A stretch of DNA of 35,944 bases from Candidatus Rokuibacteriota bacterium (GTDB lineage: Bacteria > Methylomirabilota > Methylomirabilia > Rokubacteriales > CSP1-6): assembly GCA_030647435.1 (NCBI GenBank), contig JAUSJX010000039.1:1-35944 (forward strand). Direction: 5' to 3'. Positions 26,126 through 27,655 of the stretch are shown here, in pieces. The position numbers were made by a program, and so were the translations under genes. Each line of letters starts with the position of its first letter. The first letter of the stretch is position 1. The notes under the pieces are model-generated. The model ran no database searches. It saw only the letters and a program-made list of their open reading frames with translations, and was not told where the DNA came from.

Positions 26126-27655
26126 TTAGCGGTGCGCGGTTCCCGCCAGCTTGCGCCAGCGGCGGCGGGTGTAGAAGCGGTCCACGAACCACTTCGCGTA
26201 CCGCGTATCCTCGGTGCCCGTGGTGACAGCCTTGACGAGCGTCCGGATCACCCGGAGCGGGCGGAACAGGAACGACAGCAGGTAGAAGTTCCAGAACATC
26301 CACATCATGGTCCAGTAGAGGCGCCGCGTGCTGATGGCGTCGGCGTACGACGGCGCCTTCTGGGTGTAGAAGTCCATCGGGGAGACGAAGAAGTCGTCGT
26401 CGAGCTCGATCTTGCCCTCGCGCTGGAGCCGCGTGAAGAGCTCCGAGCCGGGGTACGGCACGAACTTCGACACGGCGACGTCGTAGACCCCGAGCCAGGC
26501 CATCCTGCGGATGAGTCGGGTCGTCTGCCTGAGCGTGTCCGGCGTGTCGTCGGGGAAGCCGATGACGATGAAGCAGGAGAGCTTGAGCCCGCGCTTGACG
26601 GCGATCCGCATGGACTCGAGCATCCGCGGGAGGTCCACCTGCTTCTTGATGACCTTGAGGATCTCGGGCGAGCCGCTCTCGGGCGCGAAGGCGAGCGCCC
26701 GGCAGCCCGAGCGGTACAGGAGGTCGGCGACCTCGGCGTCGAACACGTCGGCGCGCGTGCCGCTCGGCATCTGCCAGGTGATGTGCAGGTCGCGGGCGAT
26801 CAGCTCCCGGCAGAAGTCCACGATCCACTGCCGCTTGATGATCGACGTCAGGTCCTGGAAGTCGAAGTTCGTCACCCGGTACTTGCGGGCGTAGAGCTCC
26901 ATCTCGTCGGCGACGAGCTTGGGGTCGCGCGGGATCCAGCGCTGGGTCCACATGCCGGGGTTGGAGCAGAAGGTGCACTGAAACGGGCAGCCGCGCGTCG
27001 CCAGGAGCGGCATGGACCGCCCCATGTTGGCGCCGTTGATCTGGTGTCGCGCGATGTACTCCTCGATGGGGAACGAGTCCCAGTCGGGCGGCGCGATCTT
27101 GTCCACGTCCTTTTTCCGCGCCGAGAGCCCGGTCATGACGACACGGTCGCCGTCCTTGAACGCGATGCCCCTGACCTGCGACAGCGGACGTCCGTCGCGC
27201 CTCGCGCGCAGCAGCTCGACCACCGTGTCCTCGCCCTCGCCCAGCACGATCGCGTCGAAGGGACTGACCTTCAGCACGTTCTCGGGCACCGCGGTGCCGT
27301 GCTCGCCGCCCAGGACCATCCAGGCGTTGGGGAACTTCTCCCGCACCGCCCAGGCCAGCTTGTTCACGAGCGGCCACAGCGTGGAGAACATGCAGGCGAC
27401 GCCGATCACCTCGGCGTCCGGATGGATGCGGGCCGTGATCTCGTCGAAGGACAGCCCCTGGATCATGAAGTCGTCGCGGTCGGGATAGGGGCGCACGACG
27501 TCGAGGGCTTGGCCGGTGCCGTCGATGACCTGGTAGGGCAGGCCCGCGTCCTTGATCGCGGCCGCGATGTAGGCAAGCCCCAGCGGCGGGTTGGGCGTGT
27601 GCATCTGCAGGCCGGAGAAGGTTTTGATGCCCGGCGGATTGATCAGCGTGATCAT
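26126..27655 (-). CDS. Radical SAM protein with cobalamin-binding-like N-terminus
   Basis: A 509-residue protein. Residues 1-190 have the layout of B12-binding radical SAM proteins ([50 protein letters not shown]), although the classic DxHxxG cobalamin motif is not evident. The radical SAM core follows with [10 protein letters not shown] (C213, C217, C220 for the 4Fe-4S cluster), [16 protein letters not shown] and [17 protein letters not shown]. The C-terminal 80 residues are aromatic and basic ([18 protein letters not shown]), perhaps membrane-associated. Start ATG 27655. In this locus it may methylate an unreactive carbon or alter a sugar; the reaction is unknown. Confidence 0.88.

Follow-up and report, generated by a model that had tools for sequence, protein, structure and literature searches.

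The window, by which we mean the whole 35,944-nucleotide stretch of DNA analysed, is the whole of contig C39. It carries a minus-strand ORF with an ATG at 27655 and a stop codon at 26126-26128, encoding a protein of 509 residues (Table 1). This is not a chance ORF, since it is kept at 61-97% identity in other genomes. An earlier note on this DNA had described the product as a B12-type radical SAM protein with a CX3CX2C motif, and this was borne out by the exact ORF, the Pfam domains and the cysteines C223, C227 and C230. The motif lies within the Radical_SAM core domain, as in the radical SAM superfamily. The N-terminal Rossmann B12-binding domain, the mark of class 1 cobalamin-dependent radical SAM enzymes, was recognised by Pfam, in the AlphaFold model and in the fold matches. 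The product is an uncharacterised variant inside a known enzyme class.

Table 1. Position and supporting evidence of the radical SAM gene, its domains and its neighbours in the window.
Feature	Position	Strand	Evidence
B12-binding/radical SAM protein, 509 aa	26126..27655	-	ORF, Pfam domains, invariant CX3CX2C, conserved clade
B12-binding (Rossmann) domain, residues 22-148	27212..27592	-	Pfam PF02310, 47 bits vs cut-off 32, E 2.2e-12
Radical SAM core domain, residues 219-382	26510..27001	-	Pfam PF04055, 68 bits, E 1.8e-18, above cut-off
C223-x3-C227-x2-C230 cluster-binding motif	26966..26989	-	Sequence; invariant in 23 homologues
Aromatic, basic C-terminal helical tail, residues 443-508	26132..26329	-	AlphaFold helices 443-464, 466-479, 485-508
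Fcl/ColC-like GDP-sugar epimerase/reductase (SDR)	about 25161..26120	-	GDP-L-fucose synthase model, 296.9 bits vs equivalog cut-off 500
Class I methyltransferase fused to GT2 glycosyltransferase (AglJ-like)	23678..25159	-	Pfam, NCBIfam
Class I methyltransferase MT-d, conserved partner	22965..23681	-	Pfam; kept beside MT-GT2 fusion
GMD/RMD-family SDR	19255..20214	-	Best solved relative 2pk3, GDP-6-deoxy-D-lyxo-4-hexulose reductase
WbaP-like priming transferase and Wzy/ligase-like membrane protein	15473..18077	-	Pfam PF02397, PF04932

The radical SAM gene lies within a Wzy-type polysaccharide cluster of approximately 20 kb on the minus strand, and its placement in a polysaccharide locus, proposed in the earlier note, was thereby upheld. 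The cluster holds a LegC-family aminotransferase, a polysaccharide deacetylase, several GT4 and GT2 glycosyltransferases, many class I methyltransferases, a GMD/RMD-family SDR, a WbaP-like priming transferase and a Wzy/ligase-like protein. A GDP-fucose-synthase-like gene had also been reported right after the radical SAM gene; it is indeed there, with a GTG start at 26120, a few bases past the radical SAM stop codon. It scored 297 bits with the GDP-L-fucose synthase model and matched solved GDP-fucose synthases at E about 1e-67, and alignment with these revealed the Tyr-x3-Lys pair together with their catalytic Cys and His. As its score is under the 500-bit equivalog cut-off, we name it Fcl/ColC-like only. 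The MT-GT2 fusion directly follows this SDR and overlaps MT-d, and the spacing from the radical SAM gene through MT-d looks like that of one translationally coupled operon. About eight class I methyltransferase genes, one of them GT2-fused, were counted on the minus strand between 20326 and 34420, unusually many for one polysaccharide cluster. The LegC-family aminotransferase (475 bits against an NCBIfam cut-off of 420) stands beside a truncated SDR at the contig end (34420-35912) and suggests that the polysaccharide also has a separate amino-sugar branch.

No known NCBIfam equivalog cut-off was reached by the radical SAM protein. BchE (TIGR02026) was the top-scoring model, at 178.5 bits against a cut-off of 481, followed by HpnJ (TIGR03471, 117 against 578) and HpnR (TIGR04367, 76 against 650); all three share the two-domain architecture of the window protein, and membership of each was rejected. 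The earlier note's own reading would have fallen had the protein been an enzyme of hopanoid or tetrapyrrole synthesis unconnected with glycan genes. Such an identity was ruled out by the BchE, HpnJ and HpnR scores, which are far under their cut-offs, and no hopanoid or tetrapyrrole genes were found adjoining the radical SAM gene. Membership was likewise rejected for the AprD4 family (NF033070, 66.5 bits against 500) and for TIGR04295, B12_rSAM_oligo, which has the same architecture (90.4 bits against 400) and whose short name presumably hints at oligosaccharide loci.

The AlphaFold model of the radical SAM protein (pLDDT 87.6) had TsrM, MgmA, AprD4, OxsB and CysS as its nearest folds, and the fold matches were mainly to cobalamin radical SAM enzymes, of which several are methylases. 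The class 1 enzymes TsrM, TokK, CysS and OxsB (and MgmA by fold) share with the window protein the order of its parts: a Rossmann B12-binding domain comes first, then the radical SAM domain, and the C-terminus is helical. They differ from it in that structural identity is only 14-18%, the loop after strand 3 is of other length, and TsrM, TokK, CysS, OxsB and MgmA act on peptides, amino acids, beta-lactams or nucleosides. In a profile alignment the N-terminal domain matched the cobalamin domains of TokK, CysS and TsrM, with GG and G-x-GE motifs in common, and its sequence strongly suggests that it binds cobalamin. In characterised enzymes the lower-face residue sits in the loop after strand 3 (TokK Trp76, TsrM Arg69, OxsB Asn186; PMC13331322). 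Among the homologues of the window protein F90, S91 and W94 are invariant in this loop, which has no conserved His. The pairwise alignment placed Trp94 opposite TokK Trp76, which the profile alignment did not, and because of this disagreement the assignment of Trp94 as a proven lower-face residue was withdrawn.

The C-terminal tail is enriched in aromatic residues (22% F/W/Y, against 9.5% in the rest of the protein). The earlier suggestion that it contacts the membrane held in part: the enrichment leaves contact possible, while a transmembrane segment was ruled out by hydropathy below transmembrane level, so that any membrane contact would be peripheral.

Homologues were sought in 95 genomes of the window's phylum at a threshold of E<=1e-60 and were found in 12 of them, six at 76-100% identity with the window's own included. 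Five further close relatives (61-69% identity) came from a MAG labelled Rhodospirillaceae and genomes of its order. These relatives were gathered by whole-genome searches, the contig scan having yielded one relative only. The 11 closest homologues form one clade (UFBoot/SH-aLRT 100/99) spanning two distant groups, within which the six sequences of the window's phylum are a sub-clade (100/98). Genes at the neighbouring loci were modelled with a codon-usage gene finder, which was unreliable in some low-GC loci, and six-frame BLAST was used there.

The proposed linkage to fcl in other genomes survived within the window's phylum, where an Fcl/ColC-like SDR comes right after the radical SAM gene or one gene further in all six loci (partly masked in G062). 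It did not extend to four genomes of the other group, in which fcl is not adjacent; the strict radical SAM-fcl link therefore holds in one phylum only. Strict linkage everywhere was ruled out, fcl being located elsewhere in the genome in several other-group genomes. The MT-GT2 fusion was beside the radical SAM gene in three of these four, the fourth being at a contig end. Wherever ColD is absent beside the radical SAM gene (G000, G059, G568, G771, G574 and G522), the fusion and MT-d are its constant partners, and the fusion is single-copy in these genomes, bar one. In G522 a group made up of a GMD gene, an Fcl-like gene, the fusion and MT-d begins approximately 2.4 kb from the radical SAM gene, and in G095 the radical SAM gene is near a contig end while the sole fusion gene of the genome is near the start of another contig.

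In four sister loci of the window's phylum (L029-L032, genomes G076, G073, G061 and G062) a gene for a ColD-type GDP-4-keto-6-deoxymannose 3-dehydratase stands between the radical SAM gene and the SDR; neither the window nor G059 nor the other group has ColD beside the radical SAM gene. The best solved relatives of this PMP-dependent protein are ColD entries (E 5e-78), and in all four loci a His replaces the PLP lysine of aminotransferases (FYFSHHISTIEGG, aligned to ColD). At E<=1e-90 the 95 genomes contained no further gene of this type, so the ColD of these loci occurs only beside this radical SAM gene. The GT2 of the ColD loci had dolichol-phosphate mannose synthase as its sole solved relative.

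The four sister loci resemble the colitose operon (GMD-ColD-ColC) in having a ColD-like 3-dehydratase with the catalytic His followed by an Fcl/ColC-like SDR. They differ from it in the radical SAM gene in front and the dolichol-phosphate-type GT2 behind, and the window differs further in that ColD is missing. In the colitose pathway the last step is carried out by ColC. The pathway begins with a 4,6-dehydratase, after which ColD removes the C3 hydroxyl of GDP-4-keto-6-deoxymannose, and epimerisation and reduction follow (PMC8987622). Given this order, the operon most likely makes a GDP-6-deoxy or GDP-3,6-dideoxy sugar, which would be handed to the GT2. The combination of radical SAM, ColD and Fcl looks new.

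For a radical enzyme at this place, C-methylation of the operon's sugar is the most economical role. We tentatively favour the reading that the gene product is a cobalamin-dependent radical SAM C-methylase acting on an activated deoxysugar, either GDP- or polyprenyl-phosphate-linked; methylation, the sugar as substrate and the stage of action are what we infer. The wider proposal, that this new clade of cobalamin radical SAM enzymes builds a C-methyl branched sugar of the 6-deoxy or 3,6-dideoxy type, on an intermediate linked to GDP or polyprenyl phosphate, for bacterial surface polysaccharides, is put forward with more reserve and is rather doubtful. The enzyme would be class-1-like and would serve the GDP-6-deoxysugar branch of surface-polysaccharide synthesis (a GDP-3,6-dideoxysugar in the sister genomes). 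SAM would methylate cob(I)alamin held in the N-terminal Rossmann domain, and a second SAM, on the [4Fe-4S] cluster of C223/C227/C230, would give rise to a 5'-deoxyadenosyl radical. This radical would abstract a hydrogen from the activated sugar at a carbon that is itself unactivated, and methylcobalamin would then deliver CH3 to give a C-methyl branched deoxysugar. The substrate sugar may be GDP-linked or may already be on polyprenyl phosphate: the partner GT2s are similar to dolichol-phosphate sugar synthases, and the enzyme could be kept at the membrane by its aromatic tail.

Precedent for such chemistry comes from antibiotic pathways: GenD1 methylates C-4'' and GenK C-6' of gentamicin precursors (PMC4340712), and MoeK5 is listed beside them as a C-methylase of this kind for moenomycin (PMC8992657). 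What is proposed for the window protein is likewise C-methylation of an unactivated sugar carbon, the likeness being one of proposed reaction; these three serve antibiotics whereas the window protein would serve a surface polysaccharide. In the literature that we searched, no radical SAM C-methylase was described for the synthesis of O-antigens or polysaccharides, although absence is not proven thereby. Methylation beside a C4 ketone has been ascribed to polar TylCIII-type enzymes, for example in virenose, a surface deoxysugar (PMC3539893). Next to the C4 ketone no radical is required, which counts against the C-methylase reading, and so the need for a radical enzyme would arise at a position that the ketone does not activate, or after reduction.

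The radical SAM gene is retained even where ColD is missing or fcl is not adjacent, and the enzyme may therefore act on something common to all loci and not on one GDP-sugar. C-methylation of the polyprenyl carrier or of a later lipid-linked oligosaccharide, in place of a deoxysugar, is an alternative that we regard as unlikely. It would agree with this persistence, with the aromatic, basic tail, and with the dolichol-phosphate-type GT2s and polytopic membrane proteins constantly near the distant relatives. In the 38%-identity clade the radical SAM genes are beside PMT_2 (GT39-like) genes and dolichol-phosphate-type GT2 genes, while in the 44%-identity clade their neighbour, in convergent orientation, is usually the gene for a polytopic membrane protein of approximately 600 aa. 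From these neighbour gene families, handling of polyprenyl-phosphate sugars would be the recurring theme around the distant relatives. Against carrier methylation, the closest relatives in the window's phylum are all beside sugar-modifying genes, with the SDR in six of six loci, and no lipid-synthesis gene recurs beside the radical SAM gene.

Two further alternatives keep a sugar or glycan as substrate and change the reaction. An AprD4-like dehydratase would, without cobalamin, remove a hydroxyl from a sugar 1,2-diol and leave the carbonyl to the adjacent NAD(P)-dependent SDR, as AprD3 reduces the carbonyl for AprD4, so that the product would be deoxy and not branched. AprD4, which acts on a sugar with an NAD(P)-dependent reductase as partner, was closer in sequence than any other solved structure and has a similar overall fold, with the highest TM-score (0.73) after normalisation by target length; the SDR is adjacent, and another 3-deoxygenase would be useful in the window, where ColD is missing. 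The sequence likeness is nevertheless confined to the SAM domain, the N-terminal domain aligning to cobalamin enzymes, and the NCBIfam AprD4 score is 66 against a cut-off of 500. A second deoxygenase would moreover be redundant in the four sister loci that also have ColD, and the neighbouring SDR is Fcl-like, a kind that normally acts on 4-keto sugars. We consider this dehydratase improbable.

Non-methylating chemistry by a cobalamin radical SAM enzyme on a glycan or sugar, like that of OxsB or BchE, we judge quite unlikely. Ring contraction, cyclisation and oxidation are all on record for the class (PMC13331322). BchE and OxsB use cobalamin without methylation, so that cobalamin does not imply a methylase, and this is a point against the C-methylase reading. 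The two enzymes were also the top NCBIfam model and a fold match, respectively, but the BchE score is far under its cut-off (178/481) and characterised members of the class are mostly methylases.

The locus of G059 (L028, contig C69) has an insertion-like arrangement. Upstream of the full radical SAM gene, at 5214-8885, there is a fragment of approximately 109 residues of a radical SAM N-terminus, 94% identical, together with a GT4 fragment, a 334-aa protein and an MBOAT acyltransferase. The pattern looks like the outcome of a recombination event that placed a cassette at the radical SAM gene. That the gene is a mere passenger in a recombining polysaccharide region, unrelated to its neighbours, is very improbable: the repeated N-terminus upstream of the inserted cassette does indicate that this locus recombines, but the same partners recur at 61-77% identity in two groups and are single-copy in most such genomes.

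If the favoured reading, C-methylation of an activated deoxysugar, is correct, radical sugar C-methylation reaches beyond antibiotics to cell-envelope glycans. The radical route would reach carbons closed to polar methyltransferases, which need a neighbouring ketone. The conserved operon supplies a concrete list of substrates (GDP-4-keto-6-deoxymannose, its 3-deoxy form, GDP-L-fucose or GDP-L-colitose, and polyprenyl-phosphate forms), which opens an orphan branch of the B12 radical SAM enzymes to direct testing, and the ColD-Fcl operon link in the sister genomes makes the branched-deoxysugar idea testable.

The loci of the distant relatives had features of their own. The polytopic protein of approximately 600 aa (L081, 9616-11391, with equivalents in L082, L083, L085-L087 and L089) is possibly a glycosyltransferase of the GT-C kind, and these membrane neighbours matched no Pfam family, glycosyltransferase families included. 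Small EamA-like four-helix proteins with weak Pfam scores were seen beside distant radical SAM homologues in L090 (7709-8038) and L093 (7640-7984) and are possibly ArnE/ArnF-like flippase subunits. In G068 (L033, 1-1146) a second radical SAM gene comes directly after a 48%-identity homologue, in a region that also holds NeuB, a UDP-GlcNAc 2-epimerase and an ABC-2 transporter.
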